From positions 1,798,001 through 1,862,000 of the forward strand of contig JACCLO010000008.1 in NCBI GenBank assembly GCA_029448655.1: DNA of 64,000 bases, written 5' to 3'. The stretch is from Wolfiporia cocos. Its lineage: Eukaryota > Basidiomycota > Agaricomycetes > Polyporales > Phaeolaceae. A program made the translations under genes and the position numbers. Position 1 is the first letter of the stretch. The number at the start of each line of letters is the position of its first letter. Below are positions 2,896 to 59,699 of this stretch, one piece after another. The notes beneath the pieces are model-generated. The model was not told the DNA's origin. It searched no databases and saw nothing but the letters and a program-made list of their open reading frames with translations.

Positions 2896-4400
2896 AGGGA
2901 AGCCCACGGTCTTACCCTCCAAGAAAGCAGCACATGTAGTTACCTCGTTCGAGAAGAATCGATCCCTCTTCATCCCGGTAATCATGACGCTGGCAAAACC
3001 CGTGAAATGCAATGCATTAATCGACTCAGGAGCAATGTCGAACCTGATCCACAGCAGAGTGGTAGAAAAGTACAAGGTGCCCACGCAACTGACACAGATG
3101 GCTCTGTGGGACTCACCAAGCCAGTATCCTGCGATGAACTAGGCGACTTAGGTGAGGTTATCAGACGCAATAGGAGGTAGGAGGTTCTTCTACGGCGTAC
3201 GCCGAGAAGAATAGAACTGAAGTTATAGAGCGCTTGGCTCCTACTTAAATACATGTGTGGCGGGAGGGCACGTGCTACTAGCTAGTACTGCCTTACCGGG
3301 TTATGTGGCTTTGCCAAGTGGCGAAGCTTATTTTATCTGATGTTTAGTTACTCTATCTAGAATGGCCGTGGAAGGCCCTAATGGCCGACCCAATCGTAAT
3401 AGAGGGATTATGTCTTTATTGTGTTACTAACGCGGGCGCAGCCCGGGTATAGGTGAAGCCGGTTGCCGGATACCTTGCGGAATAATGGCGATTGGCCGTA
3501 CTTCGCTGGATGACCAAGGCGGGACACCGAGGTCGTAATGCTATTGGACCGTAAGGTACCGTAGCATGTGTTATGTCCGGACCGGAAGGTAACCGGGACA
3601 TGTGTTGGTCTTAGCCGTGAGGCGAGGACCGGTGTTTGGGCAATGCCGTAATGGCAGAAGCCCGGGACTTGGAGAACGCCGAGTCCGTGGGATGGCCGAG
3701 AAGGCCGAGCCTATAGCAATATTGCCTTGGTGCTAATATAGTGCTATTTGGCCGTGTTGCCATTATTATGCGAAGGCGTGGCGCGCCTGAGGTGCCATTG
3801 TGATCGAGGATCTTATGGCGGTGGGAAGCCGGGAAGGCCGACCCAATAGTACAAGGCCGCGAGGCACTGTTTGTACATGTGGACATTATTATGTGAGCGT
3901 GCCGCGCTCGGCCTATCATTATGATCTAGGATCTATGACGTGGCTGGTCTTGCTCTGATGGGCGAGACCTGTATGACGTATGCTGTAGTGTTGCTATTGG
4001 ACGTGGTTGTACCGTAGCGTTACGTAAGCTAGTCATGTGGTTGATAAGCCCAGTTAAGAGCTTGTCGTGGTGGCAATGGGAGTTAACCCGTAGATAACTT
4101 GTAGGTAGACGTATAAATCCCAGGTAAATTGCTATAATCGTAGGAAAAATGCTGTAAGCCCCAGATAAATCTGTGACAGCAACCCTTGAAGAACCCGATC
4201 ATTGTCAAGAACGTTGACGGGACAGAAAACAAGGACGGATGAATAGATCGAGAAGCCACCATACTCCTACGATACCCAAAAACCCAGAAGACACGGAAAG
4301 TCCGATTCCTGGTAGGATCGATTGGCATTAAAAATATGATCCTAGGGTATGGGTGGCTGAAAGACGAAAACCCCACGATCGACTGGAGGGACCAGATGAT
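2896..4400 (+). pseudogene. Protease of chromovirus J, split by solo LTR Z2
   Basis: Retropepsin-type aspartic protease. The catalytic motif ALIDSGAMSNLIH lies at about 3016-3055 and the distal ILGYGWLKDENPTIDW motif at about 4339-4386, with solo LTR Z2 between them. TGA at 4240-4242 replaces a probable Arg codon. The reading frame continues directly into a dUTPase domain, not into RT. The frame is open from 4243 onward. Confidence 0.8.
3090..4178 (-). repeat. Solo LTR Z2, TSD GCAAC
   Basis: A 1089-bp LTR, TGACACAGATGG to AAATCTGTGACA, with GCAAC at 3085-3089 and 4179-4183. It is closely related to Z1. A short hairpin CACAGA-TGGC-TCTGTG sits at its plus-strand start, which is the U5 end on the sense strand. 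Confidence 0.92.
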
Positions 4401-4920
4401 TGACGTACGATCAGTATTAGGGGCAGAAGAAAGAAAACAGGAAACCACAATCCGTATGAATACGATGGAAATGGTAGTTTCCCCAGAAGGAAAAATTCCA
4501 ACAAGGGGAACCCAAGAAGCTGCAGGGTACGACCTTTATGCCGCAGAAGAAACCGAGATCCCTGCAGGAGGATGGAAATTAGTCTCTACAGGAGTAAAAA
4601 TGAAGATCCCAAAAGGATCATACAGAAGGTTGGCCGGACGATCAGGCAACACCCTCAGACATGGGCTGGTAGTGCAAGCCGGAGTCATAGACTCAGACTA
4701 CCGAGGAGATGTAGGAGCCATCGTCTTCAACTATTCGGACAAAACACACAGAATTATCCCGGGCATGCGAATAGCCCAGATAATATTCGAACAACACTTA
4801 ACCCCCGACATTGTAAAGGTTGAAGATCTAGACGAAACCGAAAGAGGAGAAAAAGGGTTTGGATCCACGGACCAACCAGAAGAAACAAGTCAACGATTAT
4901 ACACTCCTGACGAGTACAAA
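4387..4920 (+). CDS. dUTPase domain inside J pol (between protease and RT)
   Basis: Trimeric-type dUTPase, which hydrolyses dUTP to dUMP and PPi and so limits uracil in cDNA. Motifs in order: AAGYDLYAAEE (motif 1, about 4519-4551), a divergent motif 2 (AGRSGNTLRHGL in place of the usual APRSGLA), GVIDSDYRGDV (motif 3, about 4684), GMRIAQII (motif 4, about 4762) and RGEKGFGSTD (motif 5, about 4840-4872). It is in frame with protease upstream and with the linker to RT downstream, so it is an internal domain of the polyprotein. The altered motif 2 may weaken activity. No nonsense codon falls inside the domain. Confidence 0.88.
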
Positions 4921-6043
4921 GCAATTCGACGCTTCGCGAAGGAAGGCCCTAGGATCATAGGAAAGAAAGGGGAGATGCGAAGGAAGTTCCGAACAAAGAT
5001 ACAAATCATCAATGCTGTCAGGAAAGTGTTGACAAAATCTCAGGAATTCGCGCAGAAAACCCCCGAACCTGAACGAGCGATTGAGGAGATGGTCCCAAAA
5101 CACCTATTGGACTTCGCCAAGGTGTTCAGCAAGGAGTCTGCGGCAGCATTCCCCCCATCAAGACCATGGGACCACGCAATTGAACTAAAACCCGACTTCG
5201 TGCCAAGGGACTGCAAAGTATATGCGCTATCACCCAAAGAATAACAGGCAATGGACGAATTCCTGAAAGAAAACCTGGCCAAGGGATTCATAGTTCCTTC
5301 GAGATCCCCGATGGCGTCACCCTTCCTTTTCGTCCCAAAGAAAGACAATGGCCTACGGCCCTGTCAAGATTATCGATATCTGAACGAATGGACGATAAAG
5401 AACGTCTACCCCCTGCCACTTATCTCAGAGCTCCTGGAAAAGCTGAAGGGAGCGAAAATCTTGACGAAAATGGACCTCAGAGCAGGATACAACAACGTTC
5501 GAATCAAAGCAGGAGACGAATGGAAGGAAGCCTTCAAAACGAATCGAGGGTTATACGAACCCACGGTTATGTTTTTCGGATTATGCAATGCGCCAGGAAC
5601 CTTTCAAGCAATGATCAATGAAATCCTGAAAGAAGAAATCCTCGAAAGGTGGGTGCTTGTTTACATGGATGACATCCTTGTTTTCTCGGCAGACGAGAAA
5701 ACACACAAAGAACGAGAATGGCAGATCCTCCAGAGATCGGTGGATAATCACCTCTTTGTAAAACCCGAAAAATGCGCCTTTGGTGTCGACAGAGTCGAAT
5801 TTCTAGGGCTAGTCATCACCTCAGGAAATATCCAGATGGACCCGGCGAAACTAAACGAGTGGCCGACTCCCCGGAATCTCAAGGAAGTCAGATCCTTCCT
5901 AGGATTTGCGAACTTCTATCGGAAATTCATCGATCACTACTCAACGCACGCCCGACCCCTGGTATACCTCACAAAAACGGTCACAGGGACAGGGTTTCAG
6001 TGGACAGATAAAGAACAGAAAGTGTTCGACTACATGAAGCAGG

Positions 6044-22045: not shown

Positions 22046-25000
22046 TTAAGGTTCGACGTCCCGGCGAAGAAGTTCCATTTCTTCCGCTTCGATATCTGGT
22101 GTACTAGAGCCTACTGAAAGGATAGATTTTGTGTCGTCATCGAAGTGGCGGCCAGTATGGCCAAATCCTTGGTCCTTCCTCTCGCCTTTGTTCGCATGCC
22201 TTTCGTAACTCACATGAGTTCCGATAACTACGTCCGACTGGTCAAGTTTGATTACTAGAAGTTGGGCAATTCGGTTCCCTTCTTCTATGTCGTAAGCCTC
22301 ATGTCCTAGATTCATTATCATTACTTGGATTTCTCCCCTATAGTCCCAGTCTATAACTCCGCCGACTACTTGAAGACATTTCTTTGCCATTGACGATCTG
22401 GTGGCTAGTTGTCCATAGGTTCCATAGGGCAAAAGTATTTTTAAGCCCGTTGGAACGCTAACTAGCTGTCCAGGTGGTATGACGATGTCTTCAGTAGCGT
22501 AGATGTCGTATCCGGCTGAGTTGACTGTTCCTTTCTTTGGGTAGTAATCCGAATGTTCGGACTTGAGGGCAAACTCGATGTAGTCGTTGAAGGCTAGGCC
22601 TTCTTCTACAAAGTTACCGTTCGGGTCCCGGACGAGGTACTTTCGTTCATTAGCACGCTCTTCCGGGGTGAACTCTTCGTTTGCGAGTAGCCAGTCGTCT
22701 GGCCAAAGGTAGCGATCGCCAACTTGCCAGTCGTCGTCGTCTTCGGGGTCCGCTACGCGAACGCGGGGTTGTTTCTGTCTCGAAGATCTGCGCGGTCCAT
22801 CTTCGGTGGTCATCTTATCGCGCTTGTAATCGACAATAAGATCCTTGGCGGACTGCAGGTGTTCTTCGTTTTTCCAAGAGTCATGTTCCATAGTGAAACC
22901 CTTCCATCGTACCAGGAATTGAAGTCTTCCTTTTGCGGTCCATCAATGGTTTAGGATCCCTTCTACTTCGTACTCATCATCATCAGCCTTTTCAGGCTCG
23001 ACACTTTTGCCTGTATAGGGCACCAGTTTGGAGGCGTGGAAAACCGGGTGATAGGCGCGATACTGTTCATCCATGTGTAGTCTGAACGTGACCGGACTTA
23101 GTTTTTCAACTATCTTGAACGGTCCTATATATCGAGGGGCCAGACTCCTTTCGGTTGTCTGGTAATCCCTGACGTCTACCATGACTTTGTCTCCGACGTT
23201 GAAGGGTACATCTTGTGCTTTAAGATCATAGTACCACTTCATCCTCTCTGATGCCAGCTGTAAAGCTGCTTGTGCCTGCTGTTGGGCGTTCCATCGGTTG
23301 TGTGCGATCTCGTTGAGATCCGTGTCTTCTGTGAGGGCCAAATCTGCTGGTCCCGCTACCGGGTGCCTTCCAAGTTCCATATAGAACGGAGAGAACTTAG
23401 TGCTCTCAGATGCTACATTGTCATATGCAAACTCTGCCGTCGGGAGGTACTGTGACCAATCGTCCTTTCGGTATGAGTTAACGTAGCACCTAAGATATTG
23501 CTCTAAGTTCTGATTTGTTCTTTCGGTCTGCCCGTCTGTCTGGGGGTGATATGCGGTTGTCATAGACCTCTCGATTCCTAGTTCTTTGCACCATGCTCCG
23601 AAAAGCTGGGATGCAAATTGCACTCCTCTGTCCGATATGATTTGGCGTGGTAATCCATGTATTGGATAGAACCTGCCATAAAGGATTCTAACTAGATCCT
23701 TTGTTGCAAATCGGCTGGAGATTGGGAAGAACCGGGATCGTTTCGTGAGTCTGTCTACGACTACCATTATTGCGTCGTACACCTTGTTGTCGACTTTTGA
23801 CTTGGGCAGATACATGATGAAGTCTATGGTTATGACTTCCCATGGTGTTCCTGGAACCGGGTTGGGAATAAGCGGACCGTAAGGTTTTTGTGGCCTATTC
23901 TTCATTCGTTGACACGTGTCGCATTTCTGGACATAGTGCTTTACCGATGTCGTAAGTCCTGGCCACCAGTAGTTGCGAGCGATCAACTCGTATGTTTTCC
24001 ACCTGCCGTAATGGCCGGCGGTCGGATGATCGTGATGCATCTCTAATACCCTATTTCTAAGGTTTTCTGGTAGCTTCGGTACATATACCTTGTTACGGTA
24101 TAGTAACAAACCATTTTCATGGTTCCAGTCCTGCAATGTTTTGCCGAATTCTCGAGGTCCTGCAGCTAGAAGGTCTTTGTATCCCTTAACAACGCTTTTC
24201 TGATATCCCTTAGGAGATCGTCATCAGGTACCGTGGCCTGGTGAGAGGACTCGATTGCACGAATCGCAACTTCGTTCGTGAAATTTGCAAAAAATTCGTC
24301 TTTAAGCAAAATTTTATCACGATTGTCGAGTTCCACCCCCTCCTCATGGTCTGGCCTCCTGGACAGAGGGTCTGCTCTTAGCATTGTTTTTCCTGGCTTG
24401 TGGTGCATAGTGAAATTGAAGCGGGATAGGTAGAGAGCCCATCGCGCTTGTCGCCGTGTGAGTTTTTGTGCCGTCTTGAAGTATGTCAGATTTAGGTGGT
24501 CTGACCATACTTCGAACTTTTCCGGATGGCCTTCTAAGTAATGCCGCCATTCTTCTAATGATCGAATAATGGCAAGCATTTCTTTGTCGTAGATTTCGTA
24601 GTTACGTTCCAGGGCAGTCATACTTTTGGAGTAGTATGCACAGGGTAACCATTTTTTGGTTTCTGGGTCCCACTGTGAGAGTACTGAACCGGTTGCGAAA
24701 TCTGAGGCGTCGGCTTCGATAAGGAATTTGTTTTCCCTATCCGGAATTCGTAAGACGGGTGCGGTCGTAAATGCCCGCTTCAACTCGATAAATGCCTGCT
24801 CTTGGGCATCTCCCCAGGTCCATTTCTGGTCCTTCTTGGTCAATGTCGTTAACGGCTTTACTACTTTGGAGAAGTCCTTAATGAAGCGCCTATAGAAGTT
24901 GGCGAACCCCAAAAATGCTTGGACTTCTTTGACTTTGGACGGTCTCGGCCATGAAATTACTCCGCTTAATTTGGCGGGGTCCATTTCGATACGGCCTTTT

Positions 25001-25062
25001 GCAATTATCATGCCGGGGTACTCGATGCTACTTTGCTCGAAAAAGCATTTTTCGGGGCCTGT
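22046..25062 (-). pseudogene. Truncated pol of element I: RT C-half, RNase H, integrase, chromodomain, dUTPase
   Basis: In minus order: RT thumb PEKCFFEQSSIEYPGM (about 25060); RNase H IEADASDFATG and YDKEMLAIIRSLEEW; a frameshift near 24150-24190; integrase HHDHPTAGHYG, CDTCQRMK, TIDFIMYLP, SDRGVQFASQLF, QTDGQTERTNQ; GPF/Y APRYIGPFKIVEKL; chromodomain EYEVEGILNH, stop, FLVRWKGFTMEHDSW; then dUTPase with AGYDIYATED, ATRSSMA (motif 2), GGVIDWDYRGEI, GNRIAQLL and QGFGHTG. TGA at 22943-22945 splits the chromodomain (CGA to TGA). The dUTPase motifs are all present, with changes in motifs 2 and 5. Protease and RT palm (YxDD) are absent. Confidence 0.88.
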
Positions 25063-36210: not shown

Positions 36211-39200
36211 TTACTTTCCTGTGGAGCCGAATCCACCAGTACCGTGTTCGGATTTCTTATTTTCGAAGTAAGATTTTCCATGTAGCGTGATGTGCGGGTC
36301 CTTAGCAACTTCGCAGATAAGCTGGGCAATCTTATCACCGGCCCGGATATCGATTGATATGTCCGAGTGATTCCGTAAGATAATGATTACTTCGCCTTGA
36401 TAATCGTGATCGATGACGCCACCCATTACGTCTATGCCTTTTTGGGCGAGACTAGAGCGGGGGGCGATGCGTCCGTAAGTGCCAAAAGGTACTTGGATTT
36501 TCAGTTTGGTGTTGTATTCTGTCTGCCCGTGGGCTGGCAGAACATCGCCTGTTGCAGTGTACAGGTCAAAACCGACTGAGTCCTTAGTTCCTTTTTCCGG
36601 CATTCGTCCGCCTTCACCGACTACGATTTTCAAGTCCGCGTTTTGGTTGATGTCAGCTGACATCCATCCCCCATCGGGGTGTCTAACCATGCGCAGCTTA
36701 GGATCTTTCGCAAATTCCTCGCGATACTGCGGCCAGTCGTCTGGCCAGGTGCATTCGTCGGCTTCCCAGTTGTCGCTGTCAGAGTCGAAGACGTGAACTG
36801 CTTCTTTCCTTCTAGCTGATCGCCTGAGGGGAACATCCTGCATTGGAATGGCGTGTGAAGCCTTGTATTCCTGCAGAATGTCATATGCCGAGTCGAGATC
36901 GGCTTCGCGTACCCAGGAGTCGTCATTGATGCCGAATCCTTTCCATCGGATTCTGTATGCAATTCTTCCTGCACGGAGGCGATGATCTAAGATCTTCTCA
37001 ACTTCCCATAGTTCCTCGCCATCAACCATTTCTGGTTGAGGCTCTGGTTTTTTCTGATGCACCGGGTCCTTGTACATGACCAACTTGGAAGCGTGAAATA
37101 CTGGGTGATAGGCCCTGTATTGCTCGTCCATGTGTACCCTCAAGGTGACCGGAGATAATTGTTCGATTATCTTAAATGGTCCCAAATAGCGTGGACTAAG
37201 ACTTCTTTCGGAGTCTTGCCAGCTACGGGCATCAACGAGTACTTTATCGCCGACTTTAAACGGTACCGAGCGCTTGTGTTGATCGTAGTACCAAGACCAG
37301 CGTTCAGCAGCCAATTTCATAGCTGCTTTAGCTTGTTCTTGTGCTGACCATCTAGCGTAAGCAAATTGATTTAAATCCGAGTATTGTGTCGGCTTCAAAT
37401 CCGCAGGTCCTGCATTGGGATGCCTTCCTAGTTCGACGAAGAATGGGCTATTCTTGGTCGTCTCACTAGCCGCGTTGTTATACGCAAATTCTGCCGTGGG
37501 GAGATAGAACACCCAGTTATCTTTTTGGATAACGTCGATGTAGCATCGTAGGTATTGTTCCAGAATCTGGTTGATTCTCTCCGTCTGGCCATCTGCTTGC
37601 GGGTGATAGGCGGTTGTCATCGACCTCTGAATTCCCAATTGCTCGCACCATCCCTTGAATAGCTCGGAAGAGAATTGCGGTCCTCTATCCAAAACAATTT
37701 GTTTCGGAAGTCCGTGGTTCGGATAAATCCGAAGGTACAGGAGGTTTGCTGATTCTTTTGCCGAGATATTGTCTGACGTGGGAATGAAGTGTGCGCGCTT
37801 GGTCAATCGGTCCACTACTACCATAATAGCAGTGAATTGTTTGAATTCGCTGCTGGGCGGTAAGTGAACGATGAAGTCGATTGTGATTGTATCCCAAGGT
37901 GCTTCCGGTACTGGGAGCGGTTGCAGGGGTCCATACGGGGTCTGGTTGCGGTTCTTCATGCGTTGGCATGTGTCGCAACCTTCCACGTATTGCTTTACCA
38001 TTGTGGTCATTCCAGGCCACCAGTAATTACGTGATAGAAGTTCGTGAGTCTTCCATCGTCCGAAGTGTCCGGCAGTTACATGGTCATGATGTAACTCCAG
38101 TATCTTCGTGCGCAATTTTTTAGGCTCTTTTGGAACGTACACTTTTCCTCGTCTGAGGAGTAATCCAGCCTCCATGTTCCATTCCTGGAGATCTTTACCA
38201 AATTCCTTGGGACCACTTTTCAGTAGTTCCTGGTAATCTTTGGTAATCTGATCGTTCATGAGGGCTTGTCGGATTTGTCGGAGGAGGTCCTCGTCGCCTG
38301 ATTGTATCTCCTGCTGTGACGCTTCTAGCGCCCTAACCGTGAAATATTCCGGTTTCAGCAAAATTTGATCGCGATTATCGAGTTCCACCCCCTCTTCATG
38401 GTCTGGCCTCCGTGACAGAGGATCAGCCGTAAGCATTGTTTTACCGGGTTTGTGACACATGGTGAAGTTGAACCTTGTCAGGTAAAGACTCCAACGTGCC
38501 TGTCTCCAGGTTAGCCGTTGTGCCGATTTGAAATATGTCAGATTGAGATGATCCGACCATACTTCGAATTTGTGTGGATGTCCTTCCAGGTAATGTCTCC
38601 ATTCCTCTAGAGCGCGGATGATTGCAAGCAACTCCTTATCGTAAATCTCATAGTTCCTTTCAGGTGCTGATAGAGATTTCGAGTAAAAGGCTACCGGGTG
38701 CCAGAGCTTATCCTCCGAAGAGTATTGCGATAGCACCGCACCAGTTGCATAATCGGAAGAATCCGCTTCCACGCGGAACGGGGATTCCTGATCTGGGATC
38801 CGGAGTATTGGAGCCGATGTGAAAGCTTCCTTGAGAGTTTGGAAGGCTTCCGCTTGTTCGGGTCCCCAGTTCCACTGCGTGTTTTTCTTGGACAGTTCGG
38901 TTAACGGCTTAACCACTTTGGAGAAGTCCTTAATGAACCGACGGCAGTAGTTGGCGAAGCCAACAAAGGCCTGGACGTCCTTCACCTTGGCAGGTGTAGG
39001 CCAGTCCATTACGCCGGCTACCTTCTTAGGGTCCATTTCGACTTTTCCTTTGGAAATGATCATTCCCAGGTATTCAATACTGCTTTGTTCGAAGAAGCAC
39101 TTTTCAGGCTTCGCGAACAAGTCGTTGTCTTGCAAGATTTGTAATACTTGCTTGACGATACGACGGTGTTCCAGCAAGTCGTTTCCGAACACAAGGATGT

Positions 39201-39417
39201 CGTCTAGGTAGACAATGACCTTTCCTTCTCTGATAAGGTCACCTAGGATATCGTTCATCATGTGTTGGAACATGCTGGGTGCATTACAAAAACCGAAGTA
39301 CATGACTACAGCTTCGTAAAGGCCGTTAGGCGTAATGAATGCGGTCTTCCATTCATCTCCCTCCTTGATTCTTACGTTGTTGTAACCCCAACGCAAGTCG
39401 AGCTTTGTAATTATCAA
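36211..39417 (-). pseudogene. pol of G, second part: RT, RNase H, integrase, chromodomain, dUTPase
   Basis: 1068 open codons. RT palm TKLDLRWGYNNV and VIVYLDDILVFG; RNase H VEADSSDYATG and YDKELLAIIRALEEW; integrase HHDHVTAGHFG, CDTCQRMK, TIDFIVHLP, LDRGPQFSSELF (Leu in place of the usual Ser) and QADGQTERINQ; GPF/Y SPRYLGPFKIIEQL; chromodomain LWEVEKILDHRLRAG to WKGFGINDDSW; then a linker and dUTPase with VGFDLYTATGD, GRIAPRSSLA, GVIDHDYQGEV, GDKIAQLI and GTGGFGSTGK at the very C-terminus. All dUTPase motifs are intact. The frame is separated from the N-terminal part of pol by a small deletion in the RT fingers. Confidence 0.9.
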
Positions 39418-40731
39418 AGCCTGGCTAAGCTTATCGATAAGCTCGTCTTTGCGTGGGAGAGGGTACCTGTTTTAATGGTCAAGTCGTTCGACAACCATTC
39501 AGGCTCCGCCATCCTTTTTAGGGACGAAGAAGACCGGGCTCGCAATCGAGGATTTCGAGTGTCGGATGTAGCCCTTCCGTAACTCTTCCTGAATCCATTG
39601 ATCTAGTGAGTTTGCTTCCTGGGGAGACATCTTGTATGCCTTACCCGGGGGCGGTAGTACTACGTCATCGGGGAAGTCGATGGCGTGGTTGTATGGTTTC
39701 CGTTCGGGCATCCGAAAGGATGCCCGTTGAGAAAATACCGTGGGACCAAACTCCTGGTATATCTCCGGAACCAAGGATTTCCATTTCTGGAGATCCGCAT
39801 CTGTCAGGAATTCATTGTCCGACTTCTCCTTTATCGACTGAATGGCAGCGATAAGGAGTTCCGTTCCTTCGTCAAGGGTGTTCACCCAAGCGACACAGGG
39901 ATTCTCAGGCTCCTCTAAGCCGAGAAAATCTATTGGAAAGTTGTTGATGATCTGATAGATGTTGCGGGGTTCGATTTCGTCTTCTTCCTCAGAAATCGAA
40001 ACCCGTTTGCCATGTTTGCATTTTTCCGTACACCGATATGTGAAGATTCCTTCCGGCCAGTTGAAGTCCGGGTTGTGTTTCAGGAACCAATCATATCCGA
40101 GGATCACATCCGCATTCTGTACGTCCATTACGTACAAGAATTCGGTGGACTTGTGTTCCTCGTGCACCATATAAGCCTTAACTGCCATATTGATATTACC
40201 GGCGGTATTAGAGGTACCGTCGGCGTTACAAATCTTGAGGGGGGAAGGTAGTTTTTGTGTGACTAACTTCTCCTCATGGACGAGTTTCTTATCTATGACG
40301 CTTATTGATGCACCGGTGTTGATTAATGCCATGGCGGTTACTTTCTTTCCGTATACCCACAGTTCTACTTCGATGGAGAATGATTTATTGTCGTCTCGAG
40401 AATCATTTCCGTGTACATTATACAAAGTAAAAAACTTCAACGCGGTGGGGTCAGGATGAAAGTATTGTACAGGAGGGGCACGTGTAGCTAGTGTCCTTGT
40501 CCTCCGGGCAAAGTCCATTGCCGAATTTCCGAATATACCGAGGTGGGATACCGGGTGACGTACGACCGCCTTATCCTCCCACAAGATAAGGGGTCCTTGG
40601 GAAGCCCCTTCGTAGGGGTGCTCTTCTTTGGGGAGCTGTATGCTCCCAGCCACTGCGGGGCTGGTGCATTCTTCACAGGACGTCTTCGAGACGCGTGGTG
40701 GGGGCGAGGGGAACCAAGATGGTCCCGACAT
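39418..40731 (-). pseudogene. pol of G, first part: protease and RT N-terminus
   Basis: The open frame runs from 40731 to 39499. Protease motif reads ALINTGASISVI: the catalytic Asp codon is Asn (AAC, plus 40318-40320), explained by one G-to-A change, so the protease should be dead. Distal motif VILGYDWFLKHNPDFNW follows. RT starts with YNHAIDFPDDVVLPPPGKAY and SSIASPVFFVPKKDGGA. In 39418-39499 a deletion removes part of the DYRRLN region and shifts the frame. The first ~60 nt overlap the end of gag in a different frame. Confidence 0.85.
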
Positions 40732-44942: not shown

Positions 44943-45641
44943 TGACACAAACTAGTTGTGGGACTCACTCTATAACCTTGTTAAGCGACTTGAAGTAGTT
45001 GCTGGAGGTTGGTGAGGATACTAGTAGGCGCAAGCAGGAATGATGTGTAACTGTGCGAATGCAGAGAACAAATCTAAGGCTTATCCGCAGTGATAGCCCT
45101 ACTTATATACATGCTTTGTTTGGTTACCAGTAAGGGAGCCAAACATGTAGACGGTCTGTGCGCAGACATAACTAATACAGCTAAGTCGTAAACTACAATA
45201 GACCATGTGCGCCGGTAATGGCCGCACCAGTAAGAACGTTTGTTTGGACTGTAGGTCCATGTTGTGGAAGTGGCTGTAGCTACGTTAGTAAGCCAGGCAT
45301 GTGATAACTATATACCGGTATCGGGATATGAGTAATCATAAGGGCATTGGCATGTGATAACGAGCGGGCCGCTTATCCCATTGTACTGACATAGCCCGGT
45401 ATTGGGATATGAGTAAGACGCGTGACACCGGAGGTTAGTCCGCTGAGTCATTGACGCGTACGAGCGTGTTATGTACGTGTTGTTATGACGGGTGGACGTA
45501 TACCGCGTTGTGTACGTGTTGTTTGGTTTAGTGTACGTGTAGACGGGCGCTTAGCAGCGTAAATGTCTACAAGGTTGTAGAAATACCAGATAAATAGGTA
45601 AAGATACAGGAAAAATAGCGGCATGTCCCAAATCTGTGACA
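44943..45641 (-). repeat. 5' LTR of element G
   Basis: 699 bp; plus-strand TGACACAAACTAGTTGTGGG to CCCAAATCTGTGACA. It adjoins the leader with the self-primer site on the left and truncated Copia coding sequence on the right. Confidence 0.88.
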
Positions 45642-47269
45642 CCGTTGAGAGAGTAGAGCCGCCGTGCAGAAAGAGAACCCGAAGCGATAAGTGAGCCGCT
45701 GCGACGCAAGAGCTGAACAGAGGAATCGTCAAAGACGACTTGGGGCCGGAGAGGTGACTGACACAGCGCAGAGATAGAAACGAGTCGGACGGTAGCCTGT
45801 GGGACATATAGAACATCATCCAAGGTGAGGTGATTTCCCTTCCCAAGGGTGAGACAAATGCGACCAATGCCATGGGCATAAATGACCGACCCATTGATTC
45901 CTTGGATACCACGGGGGGCAATGGGCCGTAGCTCGAAAAAATCTGATCGAGTCGGGCTAAGGTGTGTGGAGGCTCCAGAGTCAAAGTAGAAGGGTGCAGA
46001 CCCAACGGTGGGGACACGATGTGTGCTGGCAGGGACAGGAGTTACAGCGTATGCGGAGGGGTTAACAACTGGGTGTGAGTGCACGTCCCAGTCCAGGGAG
46101 ACGGTGGTGTCCTCAGAGAGAAGGGTAACGTACTCAAAGTCGTCTGCCGGGGAGCATATGGATGCGAGCCAGGCGGGGTCTGTGTTGACAGCCATGCCAG
46201 CAAGCTCAGGAGCAACAGGCGAAGCTACAGAGCTCTCAGAAGCAAGATACACGACAGACCCAGCGGAGTCAACGATGAAAGCGCGTCCCTGTGCATCGGT
46301 GTATGTTTTGGGCACAGCTGCCGTGCGGGGGCAGTTGCGGTCACGTTTGGCATGCTTGGCTGCCAAGACTTCATCACAACGACCCTCCATCGCACCACCA
46401 GCCTGAAAGCAGTCCTTGGATAGGTGTCCAGAACGTCCACAGTTTGTGCACACGATCTTGGCCGGGGCGGCCAGGGCTCCCTTGGCAATGAGAGCATCAG
46501 GGGAGGTAACCTTCGACCCATCGATGAGCTGTTGTTCGAGGTCCAAGCGGCGGATGATATCACTAGGTTTCAGATCCTGAGGGTTTGCCGCAAAAGATGT
46601 GCCGATCTGAGACTGCAGATGCTTGAACTCGCCAGACATGGCATGCAAGAGGCTGATGGTGATGAAAGTTTCGTGCGTTGGGATCCCAATTCGAAACACT
46701 TTGTCGACTAGGTCCTGAATCTTAGTGGTGACCCCGGCAAGCCGGTCCGATCGTGAGTAGCGGATAGAGAATATCTCCATGATATACTGGACTTGCGCAT
46801 AAGGACCTTCCTTCTCGTGACGTGTGCAGAGGGCGGCCCAAGCCTTGGCAGCAGTCGCTGAGGTCGACGTGGAGGTATTGTCAACATATGGCTCGAGAAA
46901 CTTAGCTTCCTCCGCACTGCATTTCATAGCTAGAAAGTTGCACGTGACACGATTGTTGTCCACCCAGTTATGGAAAGCAATGGGCTCCGTTGTTGCGTTC
47001 GGCGCAGAAGCAGAGCCAAGGAGGTATTTGTCGAGCCGGCTCTTGCTAAGCGACTGTAAGATGTATCGACGCCATTCGGACCAATTCCCTTTGCCATGGT
47101 CGAGAATGACACCGCCAGTCAAGAATGCGTTAGCCGGAGTTAGAGGCTGGACCGATGGTGCCGTCGATGGGACTGAGACAAGGGCCGTCGCAGAGGCACT
47201 GAGGGCCTTCGAACTCAACGAACCCGAGCCCTTTGGATTAGATGGGGAAGGAGGGGTTGATTTGGTCAT
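45642..47269 (-). pseudogene. Copia-type gag-protease, truncated by element G
   Basis: ATG at 47269. Gag of the UBN2 type: VILDHGKGNWSEWRRYILQS, AWAALCTRHEKEGPYAQVQ and FRIGIPTHETFITISLLHAM; zinc knuckle CTNCGRSGHLSKDC at about residue 275; protease APFYFDSGASTHLSPTRSDF at about residue 430; then the LTLDDVLYVPQATVRLVSIS segment and the first part of a GAG-pre-integrase domain ending RRLYSLNG at 45642. The frame is open throughout. Integrase, RT and RNase H are missing because the G LTR replaces them. The apparent continuation of the ORF to 45551 is LTR sequence. Confidence 0.88.
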
Positions 47270-47464
47270 GCTAGCTGGTCAAAGAGAAGGCACACACAAG
47301 CAGAAGGAGTTCACGTGATCGGGCACAAGAATGGGATGCGACTATTTGTGCGCAGGAAGGGGAGCGACTATATGCGCGCTGAACGTACTTCTATGGACGT
47401 TTCATACCACCTGGAAGGCTTGGCTTAAGGTTCAGCGTTCTGAGGGTTCAGTCTGCCGGGACTA

Positions 47465-49871: not shown

Positions 49872-49876
49872 GTAGT

Positions 49877-50758: not shown

Positions 50759-51366
50759 TGTCACAAGAATTCTCCTAGTTTCCCTATATTTCTTACTATT
50801 TTTCCGGCAATTCTACGACTTTCTAGACCAATAACTAGCTTATCTGGTTCATAAGTTAACGGTTACATACGTGCCGAATGATGGCCGCGTTATCTCCCGT
50901 AACGACGGTCTTATCTTATCACTAGTAGTTACCATCAGTCACATGTCTAGTTCCAGCCAATCGGACATTCCGTCCGGAAGCAGTCAGCGTATAAACGTCA
51001 GCGGACCGGGCTTTGGTCACGCCCCGTCTTTGTAATGACAAGAGCGCAAAACGCCATTCGTGCGGCCTACGCCGCCTTTCTATATCCCGGTTTTGATTGG
51101 CATATGTATTTATCGTATATTACTAAGTACTTAGGTACCTGGGGACTTGTACATACGAATACGGACACTAGTATTATCTAATAAGACTGTTAGGGGTCTT
51201 ATTTATCGTGTATATATACTGGACTTGCTGAGCGCTATTGCCTCAGTTCTATTCATTGCATTCATACTACGAGTTAACCACTCCGCGTATCCTGCTTAAC
51301 TCTTACAACTATCCTGCCTAACCAGCAAACCAAGCAACTATTACAAGTAAGTGTTATCTTGTGTTA
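50759..51366 (+). repeat. 5' LTR of F
   Basis: 608 bp. TATATATA at 51211; predicted RNA start at about 51245 (AGTTCTATTCAT, 51245-51256). The same block also provides the partner for the primer site just outside the LTR. Confidence 0.95.
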
Positions 51367-52067
51367 TATGAATAGAACTCGCTTTCGCCCCCGCCCTCTT
51401 GGAGGGTCTGGGATTTTTTCTTCTTAGGGGTTTTCGTCGCCGTCTGCGCACCCCCGCTCGCCACCAGGCAGCGGGGTATCCTTAGTGGGCTCTGGGGGAT
51501 CACCGCCTTCGGGCAAATAGCCGGACCGTAGGCTTAAGCGGAACCAGGGGACTGGCTGTCAAGCCTTTCTCCATATGTTGGGAATCGATGGCAACGGTGT
51601 AACCACTTGACCGGGCCGGAGACGACCTTCTCGCCTATCCCCAGGCGCACAGGGGCCACTCTATTTAGAGTTGGGATGGTGGGCACGAGTTGCCCTGCCT
51701 AGAACCGCTGCCGATACGGCTTCAGAACGATAGAGTTCTGGCCTTGGCGCCCTCTAAGTCCCTCAGGGCATGGGTTTGGTTTAAACACTGGCAGCCACCT
51801 AACTGGAGTGAGGCGTGGGCACATGCGGGGTGTAATACCCCAAATCCTGCATTCCCAGGCGTCAAGGGAAGACGACCTGCTGTATCCCCCACCTGGTAGC
51901 GTGAGAGAGACGCCATCCAGTCGCCGACACTAACCCCGGTCGAGGGCGGAGCGCCCATTGACGCCGGAGGATAAGCGCATGACACAGCAAGAAGCGACGA
52001 TAAGCCCCGACAGAAGACCGCGTGATTTCCACTAGAATAGCTTACTTAGACTTCTTTTTACGTAGTC
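51367..52067 (+). promoter_or_regulatory. Leader of F: self-primer site, hairpin and small upstream ORF
   Basis: ATGAATAGAACT at 51368-51379, 1 nt from the LTR, is the exact 12-nt complement of 51245-51256. A hairpin GGGGT-GTAAT-ACCCC is at 51827-51841. A 69-codon ORF (51690-51899, MPCLEPLPIRLQNDRVL...) overlaps the hairpin; coding status is unproven. The long structured leader ahead of ORF1 would obstruct plain ribosome scanning. Confidence 0.7.
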
Positions 52068-52883: not shown

Positions 52884-52892
52884 TAGATAGAA

Positions 52893-52973: not shown

Positions 52974-53034
52974 TCTTTTCTTGAATTATCGTTTAAGGAA
53001 GAAAATAACTCAAGCTGACGAATACTGTCCAGCA

Positions 53035-55272
53035 ATGGTGTCTTACACAATCGTCCAAGGCGCTTTGTACAACACCCACAAGGTGGCTACGGCCTACCGC
53101 CCCGCCGTCGGCAAACATGCATGGCCCGGAGAGCAGACCTGCTTGATGGACTATCTGCGAGTCGTATTCGGCATCAGAGTTAGGGGGAGTGTGACCTCCT
53201 TCAACTCAATTCCGGCGCATGTGCGCCCATTCCTGAATGTAAACCATACGGCGTACATCAAGTACTATGGGGAAGATTCGACTAGGAACCACATATCGTG
53301 GTGGAGGTGGGACAACTATTGCACCGCCATCCCCCTGTCGGACCTCATAGTCCTGTACGGTGACGTCCACTGGTACTCACAGGAAGAAGCGTCGCCACGC
53401 ACGAGAGCCGCCAGGCTCTTCAACCCGGAAACACCCGTACGCCGAGCAGTCGTCACCCCCGAAGGCAGCGAGACTCCACGGCCGGAGGAACCAGTCAACA
53501 CGGAGCCCCTCTTTGGATCGCTCCCCGATCTCCTCCCCTCCTATGAAAGGGGAACCCTGGAAATAGTCGCGCAGCCGGAAAGAAGCGAAAACGAATTGAT
53601 GGGAAGGTTGCAGCGCACTCTGGAAGTGGCCGCCTCAGACGAAGTTCTGCAGGTGGGAAAAGAAGCTTACAGGGAGGCGCTGTACCAAGCCAAAAACCAC
53701 CTCTACAGCAACCTCGCGGCATACAAAAGCCGGGTAGACACGAATATGGAGATGGTCTGGAACAAGACCAACCAGATTCGGAGTCATAACCAGGTGCTTC
53801 AAAATAGAATAGAAGCACTAGAGGAAGCGGAGAGTTTGCGGCAACAATTGGATACCCTTTCCGAAAATCGGTTCGTCCGCATAGAAAAAGATATCGCAGT
53901 ACTGCAAAAGCGTCCGGCAGTCCCAACCGCGGGACCCAGCGGTGCCCAGGTCACGGCACTAATTAATAGAATTGACCAACTCGAAGCGGAGTTAACCGCT
54001 CTAAAAAACGCACCGGCAGCCGCGACAGCAGCAGCCACAACGGTCAACTTTCAACAGACCAAACCGACTCAGCCGCCCAAATTCTCGGGCCCTAAAGACT
54101 CCATCTCGTCGAAAGAATGGATCCAAAAGATGGGCATGTATTTCGCGGACGCCAAGGTGACCCTCGAGGAAGACAAGGTCCGCCAAGCCCTGCTACGGCT
54201 TACGGGCGAGGCCTACCAATACATGTCGCCGGTAGTTGATAAAATCGCCGCCGGACAAACCTCGGGGCACACCTGGAAAACGTTTGCGGAAACGATAGAG
54301 AAGGTATACGGCAAGAAGACGGACAAGGAAATTGCCGAAAAAGAGATTGAAGGGTACTTCGGAGACGAAGGGAAAAAGAAGCTCCAATCGGACTTCTTTT
54401 CTTGGGCACAGAAGCTCAGGACCCTGGCTCGCCTGGCCGAGACTGACAACAAGACGTTGTTCAGTCACATCAAACGGATCCTTCCGGAAAATGTGCGAGA
54501 AACCCTCGCTACCTTGGAATCGGTGCCTGGCTTCACAATGCCGACCGACTGGGAGGTATACCTCGATATGGCCATCGACCTCTACAAGAGGCAATACCCG
54601 GATAAACTCAAAGGCAAGATCTTTGAGGAAGAAAAGAAGAAGGAGTCGTCGGGGTCTGGCAAGACCGCCGACAAAGCTACGTCGAAGCCTGCCAAGGCGG
54701 ATGACAAAGGCAAAGGCAAGGCAAAGGAAACCGGCTCTTACGGGAAGGACTGTCGCAAGCACCCAGGACAACACAAATGGGGCGACTGTCCTGAGAACCC
54801 TAAGAACAAGCCGAAGGAAGCCAAGCCGGCCAGTAGTGGAAGCGGAACGACGAAGCCGACAGGCTCGTCGAGCGGAACGCAACAGTCGGGCCAGAAGAAA
54901 TTGGACCCGAAGAAAAAATACAAGGTCCGAATTGTCAGCACCCAGGAACTGGTGACTGACGACGAAGATGAGTCCCCCCAAGCCACCGTAGGGACTATCC
55001 GGACCAACGTTCCGAAGCAACCAGAGGTGGTTCCTCTGGCTCCCACTACGCGCATCAGCGATGAGGAGCAAAGCGGGAGTTCGGTGCGATCGGCAGAAAG
55101 CACCAGCCCCGTCCAGACCCAGTCGACTGGTTCGACTTCGACTGCGCCTACACCGTCGGGCGACTCCATCAGGACACATCTGCCCTGGCTTCGCAAGCGG
55201 ATAGCCGACTCCGCAAACACCCTGGGCATCTACGGAAGCTCTGCCTCGGGTTTTCCCACCGAGCACATGTGA
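53035..55272 (+). CDS. gag of element F
   Basis: 745 aa from ATG 53035 (MVSYTIVQGALYNTHKV); an upstream TTG is not needed. N-terminal domain with GKHAWPGEQTCLMDYL; central coiled-coil-like helix (NRIEALEEAESLRQQLDTL); Gag core FSGPKDSISSKEWIQKMGMY to IKRILPENVRETL; Lys-rich tail with DCRKHPGQHKWGDCPEN, a C-x3-H-x3-H-x4-C arrangement in place of the usual CCHC knuckle; then Ser/Thr-rich C-terminus. The stop codon TGA (55270-55272) overlaps the pol ATG (55272-55274). Confidence 0.9.
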   Translation: MVSYTIVQGALYNTHKVATAYRPAVGKHAWPGEQTCLMDYLRVVFGIRVRGSVTSFNSIPAHVRPFLNVNHTAYIKYYGEDSTRNHISWWRWDNYCTAIPLSDLIVLYGDVHWYSQEEASPRTRAARLFNPETPVRRAVVTPEGSETPRPEEPVNTEPLFGSLPDLLPSYERGTLEIVAQPERSENELMGRLQRTLEVAASDEVLQVGKEAYREALYQAKNHLYSNLAAYKSRVDTNMEMVWNKTNQIRSHNQVLQNRIEALEEAESLRQQLDTLSENRFVRIEKDIAVLQKRPAVPTAGPSGAQVTALINRIDQLEAELTALKNAPAAATAAATTVNFQQTKPTQPPKFSGPKDSISSKEWIQKMGMYFADAKVTLEEDKVRQALLRLTGEAYQYMSPVVDKIAAGQTSGHTWKTFAETIEKVYGKKTDKEIAEKEIEGYFGDEGKKKLQSDFFSWAQKLRTLARLAETDNKTLFSHIKRILPENVRETLATLESVPGFTMPTDWEVYLDMAIDLYKRQYPDKLKGKIFEEEKKKESSGSGKTADKATSKPAKADDKGKGKAKETGSYGKDCRKHPGQHKWGDCPENPKNKPKEAKPASSGSGTTKPTGSSSGTQQSGQKKLDPKKKYKVRIVSTQELVTDDEDESPQATVGTIRTNVPKQPEVVPLAPTTRISDEEQSGSSVRSAESTSPVQTQSTGSTSTAPTPSGDSIRTHLPWLRKRIADSANTLGIYGSSASGFPTEHM

Positions 55273-58200
55273 TGACCTGCCCACTTGTGCTCCCATGTAA
55301 CTTTAGTCCCGTACCCGCTGTAAAGAGTGTATTCGAGTCAATGTATCATATTTTTGGCAACGATGCGCGCGACTTCGCTCGATCATTCCGTGTCGAAGTA
55401 ACACTCTGGGTATATGGGCAAAAAGTGCAGGCTCTGGCTTTAATCGACAGCGGTGCAACCATATCGGTCATATCACAACGATTGGTCGATAAACATAAGC
55501 TGGTCACCGACAAACTAGCGTTTCCTATTACGGTTACAAACGCAGACGGAACAGAAAACGTCGCCGGCCGCTTAACGCAATCAGTAAAAGCATTCATGCA
55601 ACATGGCACACACAAGGAAAAAATAGGTCTGACGGTCATGCACCTAGAACCAGACCTAATCCTTGGCTATGACTGGTTGCGTCTCCACAATCCTACCTTT
55701 GATTGGAGGAAAGGAGAAATGGAATATGCACGCTGTACACACGACCAACCCTACGCCAGAAAAAAGGGTAACCGCCCTTCTGAGGAGGAAGCAGTTGAAC
55801 TCCCAGAAAAGGAAATCATCGAAGTAAATTCGATTTGGGACACTCCCGTGGACATATTAGGAGAGGAGGACCCCAAAAATCCTTTGATCGCTTGGGTGGC
55901 AACCCTTGACGACGAGGAAATGAACCTGCTGACACAGTTGGTAGCCGAGGTACTTGACAAAGACCTCGACGAAGCAGACGACCGTGAGGAAAACACACCA
56001 CCGATTGACATTGAAAAATGGCGATCGTTAGTGCCCGAACAATACCAAGAGTATGGGCCAACGGTGTTCTCACAAAAGGCGTCAGAGAGGATGCCGGAAC
56101 GGAAGCCCTGGGATCACGCCATAGTGCTTGAACCAGATGCGCAGCTTCCTCCCCCGGTAAAACCATACAAAATGTCTCCCCAAGAGCGTAATAGCTTGGA
56201 TGAGTGGATAGACACCGAATTACGGAAGGGTTACATTCGACCATCCGAAAGTCCGATGGCATCCCCGGTCTTCTTTGTCCATAAAAAGGACGGAGGACTG
56301 CGGATGGTTGTCGATTATAGGAGGCTAAACGAAATAACCGTAAAAAATCGTTATCCGATACCTCGGATCGATGATCTCATCGATCAACTGTCCCATGCGA
56401 CCATCTTCACCAAAATCGACCTTAGATGGGGATACAACAATGTCCGCATCAAGGAAGGTGATGAATGGAAGACGGCGTTTATTACACACCGTGGACTATA
56501 CGAGGCAACGGTGATGTATTTCGGTTTCTGCAATGCCCCCGCAACGTTCCAAGCGATGATGAATTCTATCCTCGCACCGTTCATTCGAACCGGCAAGGTG
56601 GTTGTCTACCTAGATGACATCTTGATTTTCGGGAATGATATGGAGGAACATCGGCGACTTACCAAAGGGGTGCTACAAACCCTGAAGGACTCGGACTTGT
56701 ATGCGAAGCCCGAAAAGTGCTTTTTCGAACAGTCTTCCATCGAATACCTAGGAATGATCATTTCCGACGGTAACATCATGATGGATCCGAAGAAGTACGC
56801 CGGAGTTCAGGACTGGCCTAGACCTAATAAGGTCAAAGAGGTTCAAGCTTTCCTTGGATTCGCCAACTTCTACAGGCGATTCATAGAAGGTTTCTCAAAA
56901 ATAGCCAAACCACTCACCATGCTGACCAAAAAGTCAGAAGCTTGGCATTGGGACGCCGAGCAGGAAAATGCCTTCCAAACCCTAAAGGAAGCATTTACCA
57001 AAGCGCCCGTGCTTCGGATTCCGTCGCACGATCAGCCTTTCCGCGTAGAAACAGATGCATCAGACTTCACTACCGGAGCAGTACTATCTCAGTTAGATCC
57101 TACGGATAAAAAATTCCACCCCGTGGCGTACTATAGCAAGTCGCTAAGTGCCCCGGAAAGGAACTACGAGATCTACGACAAGGAAATGTTGGCTGTCATC
57201 AGGGCTCTAGAGGAGTGGAGACACTACCTAGAGGGACACCCCGAAAAATTCGAGATATGGTCGGATCATCTGAACTTGACCTATTTCAAAACGGCGCAAA
57301 AACTGACGAGACGACAAGCCCGTTGGGCACTGTACCTCTCACGCTTCAACTTCCAAATGAAGCACAAACCTGGCAAAACAATGCTAACCGCGGATCCTCT
57401 GTCCAGGCGGCCAGACCATGAGGAGGGGGTGGATCTCGATAATCGCGACCAGGTTCTTCTGAAACCTGAGTGGTTCGAGCAAGAGTACATGGCAATGGCT
57501 CTTGATACCTCCCATGCTGCCCCACAATCGGAAGACGAATCGATACTCCGAGAGATTCGCAAAGCGTTGCTAGACGACAAGGTCACAAAAGACTACAAGG
57601 AGCTGCTCTCATCCGGCCCTCGTGAATTCAAAAAAGACCTAGCAGAATGGAACTACGAAGGAGGGTTACTCCTCCGAAGAGGCAAAGTCTACGTTCCAGC
57701 TACACCAGCGGATATCAGACGGCAAGTGGTCGAGTATCATCACGATCACAAGTCAGCTGGGCATTTCGGACGTTACAAAACGTACGAATTGCTAAGCCGC
57801 AACTATTGGTGGCCCGGAATGTTCGTTTACGTCAAAAAATACGTAGACGGATGTGACACATGCCAACGTATGAAGAACCACCCGCAGAAGCCGTACGGCC
57901 CCCTGCAACCCTTACCGGTGCCGTCAGGCCCGTGGGAAGTGGTGACAATAGACCTGATTACACAGCTACCCCCATCGGGAATGCATGACGCGATCATGGT
58001 CGTAGTGGATCGGTTGACCAAAAGAGCAAGGTTCTTCCCAATAGAAAACACCTTCTCAACAAAAGACCTAGCTACGATACTCTATCAAAAGGTATACCCC
58101 TTACATGGGTTGCCGAAACAGATAGTATCGGACAGAGGGACACAATTTGCCTCAAAACTATTTGGTGAATGGTGCACCCTGCTGGGAATTCAAAGGTCGA

Positions 58201-59699
58201 TGACTACTGCGTACCATCCGCAGGCAGACGGACAAACCGAACGAGTGAATCAAATACTCGAACAGTATCTGCGGTGCTACATCAATACGTACCAAAAAGA
58301 TAACTGGTCGGAGTTCCTGCCAACAGCGGAATTTGCGTACAACAATGCAGCCAGCGAAACTACCAAGGAATCTCCGTTCCTGGTGGAATTAGGTCGTCAT
58401 CCAATTGCAGGACCAAGCAGTTTCGAGCCAAGCCGAAACAAAGACTTAATAGAAATTGCGAACACGCGGTTCTCTGCGCAAGAGAAAGCTAAGGCAGCAA
58501 TGAAAATTGCAGCCGAAAGGTGGTCCTGGTACTATGACCAAAAGAAGCAAGTCGTTCCCTTCAAAGTGGGCGACAAAGTACTCGTGGACGTGCGAAGCTG
58601 GCAAGACACCGAAAGAAGTCTAGCCCCTCGCTACATCGGCCCATTCCGAATCACGGAGAAATTGGGACCGGTAACGTTCAAGGTGTACATGGATGCACAA
58701 TATAGGGCTTACCACCCTGTATTCCATGCTTCAAAATTGGTCATGTACAAGGAATCCACCATCGAAGGTCAGAAAGGTCACCCTCCAGCGGCCGACAGGC
58801 CAACGGAAATGGAAGACCCGGAAGAATGGGAAGTGGAAGCCATTCTCGACCATCGCAACCGACGCGGCCGGTGGGAATACCTTATCCATTGGAAAGGCAC
58901 CGGACCTGCGGAGGACACATGGGAAATCGAGGAACATCTGGCTAACGCTAAGGAGATATTGGACGAGTACAAGGCAAAATATTCAGCCCTTAGTACCGAC
59001 CCAAATCAACCCCTTCGCCGATCAACTAGACTCGGCGGAACACGGCAAACGATAGCCGTCTTCGACCCTGATTCACCAGATTGGGATTCGGACACATGTG
59101 TCTGGCCCGATGACTGGCCCCAATATCGAGACGATGTTGATCCTACACAACCGAAAGTGTACTACAAGCGCGACCCCTTTACAGGGCAATGGGTACATTC
59201 CGATGTTGAGTTCAACGAAGACATGGAAATCGAAGTAGGAGTCAATGGCAAACTACCGACCAGGGGAACAACCGATGCGATCGGCTACGATCTATACGCC
59301 GCGCAGGATATCCTAATCAATTCATGGAAATCCGCTTCGGTCCCCACAGATATTCGTATCAAAGTTCCTTATGGGACATACGGTCGGATAGCGCCAAGGT
59401 CTGGACTTGCGAAAAAGGGCATTGACGTCCTTGCAGGAGTAATAGACCATGACTACCGCGGAGAAGTCTTTGTCATGTTGATGAACCTCACTGGAGACCC
59501 GTACCAAGTAAAGAAAGGCGACAGAATTGCTCAGCTAATCTGCGAAGTAGCAATCACGCCCGAAATACAGGAATCCATGACCAAGGAGAAGTTCGAGAAA
59601 GAAATTCGACCTCACCTACATGGAAGTGGGCCCTACAACGAGCAGTTCAACAAGCCAACAAAGCGCGGTACACAAGGTTTTGGATCGACAGGACGATAA
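55272..59699 (+). CDS. pol of element F, with C-terminal chromodomain and dUTPase
   Basis: 1475 aa. Protease ALIDSGAT (catalytic Asp 59) and LILGYDWLRLHNPTFDW; RT FVHKKDGGLRMVVDYRRLN and YLDD (446-449); RNase H ETDAS (Asp 595) and YDKEMLAVIRALEEW; integrase HHCC (His 823 region, Cys 861 and 864), DDE Asp 894, Asp 954, Glu 990; GPF/Y RYIGPFRITEKL (about 1120); chromodomain 1184-1237 with WEVEAILDHRNRRG and IHWKGTGPAEDTW; dUTPase with GYDLYAAQD (about 1338), APRSGLA (about 1374), GVIDHDYRGEV (about 1389), GDRIAQLI and GTQGFGSTGR at the C-terminus. All catalytic residues are present. dUTPase would keep uracil out of the cDNA. The pol frame is -1 relative to gag. Confidence 0.95.
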   Translation: MTCPLVLPCNFSPVPAVKSVFESMYHIFGNDARDFARSFRVEVTLWVYGQKVQALALIDSGATISVISQRLVDKHKLVTDKLAFPITVTNADGTENVAGRLTQSVKAFMQHGTHKEKIGLTVMHLEPDLILGYDWLRLHNPTFDWRKGEMEYARCTHDQPYARKKGNRPSEEEAVELPEKEIIEVNSIWDTPVDILGEEDPKNPLIAWVATLDDEEMNLLTQLVAEVLDKDLDEADDREENTPPIDIEKWRSLVPEQYQEYGPTVFSQKASERMPERKPWDHAIVLEPDAQLPPPVKPYKMSPQERNSLDEWIDTELRKGYIRPSESPMASPVFFVHKKDGGLRMVVDYRRLNEITVKNRYPIPRIDDLIDQLSHATIFTKIDLRWGYNNVRIKEGDEWKTAFITHRGLYEATVMYFGFCNAPATFQAMMNSILAPFIRTGKVVVYLDDILIFGNDMEEHRRLTKGVLQTLKDSDLYAKPEKCFFEQSSIEYLGMIISDGNIMMDPKKYAGVQDWPRPNKVKEVQAFLGFANFYRRFIEGFSKIAKPLTMLTKKSEAWHWDAEQENAFQTLKEAFTKAPVLRIPSHDQPFRVETDASDFTTGAVLSQLDPTDKKFHPVAYYSKSLSAPERNYEIYDKEMLAVIRALEEWRHYLEGHPEKFEIWSDHLNLTYFKTAQKLTRRQARWALYLSRFNFQMKHKPGKTMLTADPLSRRPDHEEGVDLDNRDQVLLKPEWFEQEYMAMALDTSHAAPQSEDESILREIRKALLDDKVTKDYKELLSSGPREFKKDLAEWNYEGGLLLRRGKVYVPATPADIRRQVVEYHHDHKSAGHFGRYKTYELLSRNYWWPGMFVYVKKYVDGCDTCQRMKNHPQKPYGPLQPLPVPSGPWEVVTIDLITQLPPSGMHDAIMVVVDRLTKRARFFPIENTFSTKDLATILYQKVYPLHGLPKQIVSDRGTQFASKLFGEWCTLLGIQRSMTTAYHPQADGQTERVNQILEQYLRCYINTYQKDNWSEFLPTAEFAYNNAASETTKESPFLVELGRHPIAGPSSFEPSRNKDLIEIANTRFSAQEKAKAAMKIAAERWSWYYDQKKQVVPFKVGDKVLVDVRSWQDTERSLAPRYIGPFRITEKLGPVTFKVYMDAQYRAYHPVFHASKLVMYKESTIEGQKGHPPAADRPTEMEDPEEWEVEAILDHRNRRGRWEYLIHWKGTGPAEDTWEIEEHLANAKEILDEYKAKYSALSTDPNQPLRRSTRLGGTRQTIAVFDPDSPDWDSDTCVWPDDWPQYRDDVDPTQPKVYYKRDPFTGQWVHSDVEFNEDMEIEVGVNGKLPTRGTTDAIGYDLYAAQDILINSWKSASVPTDIRIKVPYGTYGRIAPRSGLAKKGIDVLAGVIDHDYRGEVFVMLMNLTGDPYQVKKGDRIAQLICEVAITPEIQESMTKEKFEKEIRPHLHGSGPYNEQFNKPTKRGTQGFGSTGR

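Follow-up and report, generated by a model that had tools for sequence, protein, structure and literature searches.

Three positions for dUTPase in the polyproteins of related Ty3/gypsy elements of a Wolfiporia cocos genome

The stretch of Wolfiporia cocos DNA analysed here, hereafter the window (64,000 nucleotides; contig 75, positions 1798001-1862000, in a genome of 64.4 Mb and 76 contigs), contains nested Ty3/gypsy retroelements whose Pol polyproteins carry a dUTPase. The domain is found at three places: before the protease (PR; layout 1), between PR and the reverse transcriptase (RT; layout 2), or at the C-terminus, behind the chromodomain (layout 3). The Pfam family PF00692 (curated cut-off 22 bits) detects dUTPase in five open reading frames (ORFs) of the window, with domain scores of 109.6 to 128.1 bits, and a sixth domain spans the window end. 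Domain orders were read from a six-frame hidden Markov model (HMM) scan of the window, with stops written as X. Elements M, J and J2 are named after an earlier note on this DNA; the note's F, G and I, given without coordinates, are taken to be the three C-terminal elements. With RNase H abbreviated as RH, integrase as IN and long terminal repeat as LTR, the features are as follows.

33320-33730, plus strand: dUTPase of M, in ORF 33332-34192 (Pfam E=5.4e-34; six-frame HMM)
33737-34108, plus strand: aspartic protease of M, directly behind the dUTPase in ORF 33332-34192
35332-35502, plus strand: start of the M RT (profile positions 1-51 of 200), then a break beside the repeat (LTR) of the 36214-39471 element
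2945-3106 and 4141-4404, plus strand: PR of J, interrupted, in two pieces with stops (six-frame HMM)
4471-4890, plus strand: dUTPase of J, in ORF 4243-5241 (Pfam E=2.2e-37; six-frame HMM)
5245-5844, plus strand: RT of J (Pfam; six-frame HMM)
62613-62978, minus strand: partial RT of J2 (six-frame HMM)
63961-64380 and 64447-64812, minus strand, across and past the window end: dUTPase and PR of J2 (flanking DNA, L020)
55065-59696, plus strand: intact 1544-aa ORF, PR-RT-RH-IN-SH3-chromo-dUTPase (domains 55365-59672; Pfam, dUTPase E=1.2e-33, PF00385)
59229-59696, plus strand: C-terminal dUTPase of the 1544-aa ORF (Pfam; translation)
50759-51367, plus strand: 5' LTR of the same element (repeat comparison)
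59790-60398, plus strand: its 3' LTR, 99.5% identical to the 5' LTR, with TCTC at both flanks
36214-39471, minus strand: RT-RH-IN-SH3-chromo-dUTPase (domains 40401-36202; dUTPase 36217-36627, Pfam E=1.8e-32, PF00385), with PR in the next ORF, 40042-40401
22049-25188, minus strand: decayed element in more than one ORF, RH-IN-SH3-chromo-dUTPase with only a fragment of RT (domains 25077-22133; dUTPase 22133-22564, ORF 22049-22942, E=1.2e-31, PF00385)

Element M is a damaged copy of layout 1. It ends within RT, and its motif 2, APRSG in intact copies, has become APQSG through a change of the arginine. Intact layout 1 occurs elsewhere in the genome in single ORFs: at L009, 2254 aa comprise a gag-length N-terminus followed by dUTPase-PR-RT-RH-IN, and L011 has the same order in 2340 aa. 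The LTR pairs of L009, L011 and L013 are 100% identical, with 4-5 bases repeated at both flanks. The earlier note had classed M as a chromovirus. Its kind does belong to the same RT-RH-IN clade as the other layouts, but none of the three layout-1 ORFs of this genome that were scanned (L009, L011, L013) has the chromodomain PF00385 at E<=0.01. (The layout-1 database protein P0027, from Phlebia brevispora, does carry it.) The layout-1 elements of this genome are claimed here only as members of that clade, not as chromodomain carriers.

For layout 2, both window copies are broken. With flanking DNA added, J2 has the order PR-dUTPase-RT, the same as J, as the earlier note had it, with one stop each in PR and dUTPase. 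An intact copy at L010 reads PR-dUTPase-RT-RH-IN-SH3-chromo in one ORF of 1735 aa (PF00385 present), and at L012 the ORF is flanked on both sides by identical 300-base repeats. P0092, a protein filed under Wolfiporia cocos, matches the PR end and dUTPase of this layout at 74%.

Layout 3 is intact within the window. In the 55065 element, motif 5 appears only behind an insertion of about 25 residues, and the Pfam match ends short of it; in both this and the 36214 element, the polyprotein ends with motif 5 directly before the stop. The decayed 22049 element has an altered motif 5, GFGHTG. The near-identical LTRs and short flanking repeats of one layout-3 and three layout-1 elements are as expected of recent insertions. 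Across the genome, all 150 PF00692 matches that were scored, out of 1428 candidates, exceed the cut-off, and the true total may be far larger. Layout-3 families are numerous. In a comparison with the 55065 dUTPase, at least 20 matches, counting the window copy, are 100% identical to it over 156 aa; in a separate comparison with the 36214 type, all except the first eight of the 150 matches listed score equally, many of them in a 1528-aa frame.

The three positions in pol are therefore confirmed by Pfam and six-frame HMM, in the window as well as in intact copies elsewhere in the genome, and the PR-RT-RH-IN order of Ty3/gypsy elements is seen in window ORFs and intact copies alike. The coordinates given here and those of the earlier note differ by about 100 bases at most. 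The full sets of motifs 1-5 that it described do stand in order in the alignments and translations, except for the changes in motif 2 of M and motif 5 of the 22049 element.

How are the bearers of these layouts related? In a tree of RT, RH and IN (31 elements, 705 columns), layout 1 (four rows of this genome and P0027), layout 2 (four rows of this genome) and layout 3 (three rows of this genome with P0024, P0025 and P0057) each form a clade with 100/100 support; the clades of this genome's elements, in RT as in dUTPase, are called A, B and C, respectively. Adding P0023, which has no dUTPase, gives a clade of 16 rows that joins all three layouts with 100/100 support but does not resolve the branching order inside it. 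An RT-only tree (45 rows, after removal of 7 of 52) supports A and B, resolves C weakly, and makes P0023 the sister of layout 1 (99/95). The layouts are older than the species, because sequences of other origin show layout 1 (P0027) and layout 3 (P0024, P0025 and P0057) as well, and P0092 matches layout 2. The closest element-type proteins from named fungi come from Wolfiporia cocos (two short proteins) and Phlebia brevispora. One protein with the order dUTPase-RT-RNase H, P0051, is filed under a metagenome-assembled genome of Cohaesibacter and is probably a eukaryotic retroelement binned with the bacterium.

Was the dUTPase acquired three times, or did it move within pol? The earlier note had raised both possibilities and proposed to compare the dUTPase and RT trees. 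The dUTPases of A, B and C do form three separate supported clades in trees of 88 rows (140 columns) and 51 rows, but the backbone is open, and the approximately unbiased (AU) test, run on 45 rows with three seeds per constraint and LG+G4 only, rejects neither shuffling nor capture (none of seven constraints). All of these trees hold one basidiomycete host enzyme and about 140 columns. Prior to the 88-row tree, 36 of 124 dUTPase rows were removed (28 of the 45 'O' rows, mostly copia-type or unplaced; seven near-duplicate layout-2 rows; and P0022). The later sets, including one of 27 rows for a further test, were hand-chosen to avoid long branches, among them the 22049 copy, which falls outside C in the 88-row tree. 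Two readings were discarded. The loss of one residue between motifs 2 and 3, considered as a shared mark of A and C, is absent in P0075 and P0027 and is probably homoplasy. P0192 (Wolfiporia cocos), considered as a host enzyme, falls with the dUTPases of the layout-3 family.

That three element lineages each captured a cellular (or viral) dUTPase on their own is, in our judgement, as likely as not. The three separate clades at three places fit such a history, as do the dUTPase-less P0023 beside layout 1 in the RT-only tree (a placement that the RT-RH-IN alignment does not resolve) and the occurrence of layout-2 elements outside the clade of 16 as well. Independent acquisition is also what Novikova, Smyshlyaev and Blinov (2010; PMC2864245) favoured from a neighbor-joining tree. 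A fourth layout suggests that events of this sort do occur. The database protein P0026 (915 aa, from one contig) is a fragment of a chromodomain element with the order RH-dUTPase-IN-SH3-chromo. The dUTPase in it shares 75% identity with the cellular enzyme of Mariannaea and 66% with the host enzyme of the present genome, and is nested among ascomycete hosts (98/87, 51-row tree); a constraint that joins it to the other element dUTPases has p-AU 0.059 (27 rows), which suggests a separate capture. On the other hand, holding A, B and C together yields a likelihood 13.65 log units better than the free 51-row tree, and the free search was therefore trapped in a local optimum; in the 27-row test the same constraint is 2.39 worse (p 0.30). 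A single transposon dUTPase clade against the hosts has p-AU 0.36 and 0.64 with 45 rows, and 0.27 and 0.30 with 27. This host's own lineage is not favored as the source: joining the dUTPases with its enzyme gives p-AU 0.39, 0.19 and 0.17 for A, B and C (45 rows), and for B the union is excluded by the bp-RELL and c-ELW measures.

A single capture in a common ancestor, followed by relocation within pol (or exchange between families) and loss in some lineages, is possible, though we would not call it probable. It agrees with the presence of all three layouts inside one fully supported RT-RH-IN clade and with the AU results for a common dUTPase clade; constraining the dUTPases to agree with the RT tree gives p-AU 0.38 for layout 1 and 0.49 for layout 3 (45 rows). 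Against it stand P0027 and P0025, the dUTPases of which are nearer to most of the cellular enzymes compared than to those of their same-layout kin, although the RTs are close. Relative to L009 and L011, P0027 is about 75% identical in RT but 45-48% in dUTPase, while its dUTPase is 59-63% identical to cellular enzymes (best nine rows); for P0025 the dUTPase values are 53-59% to cellular enzymes (best nine rows) and 37-49% to the layout-3 dUTPases of this genome. For P0027 this may reflect either recapture or a difference in rate. The same pattern could also come from fast evolution of the elements in this genome. Inside one layout, the dUTPase diverges faster than RT (identity of 67% versus 86% between layout-1 types A and A2; 46% versus 74% between the 36214 and 55065 types). 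Among the matches scanned, no element has two full dUTPase domains, which also speaks against movement; P0062 has a second, weak partial match. The compound scenario, in which one ancestral dUTPase moved to three places in sister chromovirus lineages and the fourth layout of P0026 was captured independently from an ascomycete host, is doubtful. Finally, nested insertions or assembly errors can be rejected with near certainty as the source of the domain orders, for although M, J and J2 are broken copies inside a nested region, each of the three orders also occurs inside one of the uninterrupted ORFs described above, and similar frames recur across the genome.

Whichever way the enzymes arrived, it is fairly likely that three old and separate Ty3/gypsy lineages of the chromovirus clade each keep a dUTPase at its own place in the polyprotein, where it would avert uracil in the cDNA. 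That the domain is retained under selection, as the earlier note had supposed, is borne out for two of the layouts by dN/dS (Nei-Gojobori, own script; seven pairs). Two pairs have moderate dS; in these the ratio for dUTPase is 0.024 (layout 1) and 0.072 (layout 2), compared to 0.048 and 0.019 for PR, 0.006 and 0.054 for RT, 0 and 0.094 for RH, and 0.008 and 0.034 for IN. Purifying selection thus acts on the dUTPase in layouts 1 and 2, at a strength inside the spread of the other pol domains. More distant pairs have dUTPase ratios of 0.05 to 0.22 at dS above 1.2, and the sole layout-3 pair is saturated.

Why would such an element need its own dUTPase? In dUTPase trimers, active sites are shared between subunits through the C-terminal tail. 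The element's domain, made as part of (Gag-)Pol, would be released or act while fused, form the usual trimer and cut dUTP to dUMP around the particle, near RT. Less uracil would then enter the cDNA, and strand breaks started by UNG would be avoided. Position would be of little importance for the removal of dUTP, and this may be why three placements persist. With motif 5 directly ahead of the stop, as in the 36214 and 55065 elements, the tail would be free to reach a neighboring active site. Keeping uracil out of cDNA is the role reviewed for retroviral dUTPases, where it is most needed in non-dividing cells (PMC4531489).

Several observations weigh against this reading. The remaining PR-dUTPase-RT elements of the set (P0001 and its relatives, P0012, P0029 and others) do not belong to the clade of 16, and layout and lineage are therefore not one-to-one in general. 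The layout-2 dUTPase ratio exceeds those of PR and IN; dUTPase dS is above 1.2 or saturated in five of the seven pairs; and a low ratio reveals constraint on the protein sequence without identifying dUTP hydrolysis as its cause. Moreover, the host has a dUTPase of its own, which leaves the element's need for a second one unexplained. This gene, at about 2396138-2396770 of contig 45, with approximately four introns inferred from alignment, was found by a degenerate DNA pattern as the one match in 31 unlike an element copy, the protein search being swamped by element copies. As for a host uracil-DNA glycosylase, PF03167 gave no candidate in this genome (its control matched in 13 of 14 genomes), and TIGR00628 found only three UNG-like exon-sized pieces, at 1930668-1931657 of contig 56, all below the curated cut-off. 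A host without uracil glycosylase is nevertheless rejected, as the TIGR00628 pieces are present despite the PF03167 result; the thymidylate synthase control was found. A uracil-based host defense, suggested in the earlier note as the selective reason, may play this part but is still conjectural.

The coexistence of three layouts in one genome is not new. The earlier note knew of no description of them side by side, but PMC2864245 reported in 2010, for Postia placenta, dUTPases N-terminal in Pol, C-terminal in Pol, and between PR and RT, and suggested independent acquisition. From the text of that report, PosPlaTy3-3, PosPlaTy3-4 and PosPlaTy3-5 are Ty3/gypsy elements of one basidiomycete genome with the same three domain orders as here; the present genome is a different one, and maximum-likelihood trees, AU tests and dN/dS are added. 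The RNase H-dUTPase-IN layout of P0026 is absent from the Postia placenta passage of PMC2864245; no literature search was aimed at that layout. Fungal LTR retrotransposons with dUTPase include those of Phanerochaete chrysosporium (Novikova and Blinov 2008) and Tuber Tmt1 (Riccioni 2008), as cited in PMC2864245, PMC2774666 and PMC5408684, and dUTPase domains are reported as enriched in Entomophthora muscae (PMC11105155).

Retroviruses are not known to carry a chromodomain. Their dUTPases likewise occupy three positions, for which three acquisitions have been proposed (PMC1224870; PMC4531489): N-terminal of Pro in betaretroviruses, between RNase H and IN in non-primate lentiviruses, as in P0026, and C-terminal of IN in MuERV-L. 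One retroviral position is given in PMC5408684 as "between gag and RT", a wording that neither states nor excludes PR-dUTPase-RT there. The betaretroviral enzyme has been called similar to that of fungal chromoviruses (PMC2774666). The order of layout 2 is also described for Juno, Vesta and TelKA of bdelloid rotifers (PMC5408684), which differ in lacking a chromodomain and in their hosts, and for a giant Gypsy element of a planarian (PMC6431247), again in another host.

The Wolfiporia cocos genome is thus a further fungus with all three layouts, along with many near-identical copies, rather than a new kind of system. Retroelements keep dUTPase wherever it is placed in the polyprotein, so that selection probably acts on the activity rather than the position. 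The question of why an element should need an enzyme of its own when its host has dUTPase and, seemingly, UNG becomes testable in a fungus.

Some minor observations concern the layout-2 dUTPase. It lies on many small contigs (between contigs 21 and 73; L046) at recurring offsets, namely 17265 in contigs 35, 38 and 43, and 31384 in contigs 36, 39 and 44. Six small contigs hold two copies at a spacing of about 67-79 kb, a pattern that would suit contigs derived from a single large repeat unit; an Rfam search of 4.9 kb of contig 35, one of the small repeated contigs, gave no match. P0091 (172 aa), a dUTPase recorded for Anoxybacillus flavithermus on a contig of 622 bases, shares about 95% identity with that of layout 2 in this genome, probably through contamination of that assembly by fungal DNA. 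Within the window, a Ty1/copia-type gag with Pol_BBD lies at 45554-47278 on the minus strand, neighboring the Ty3 elements.

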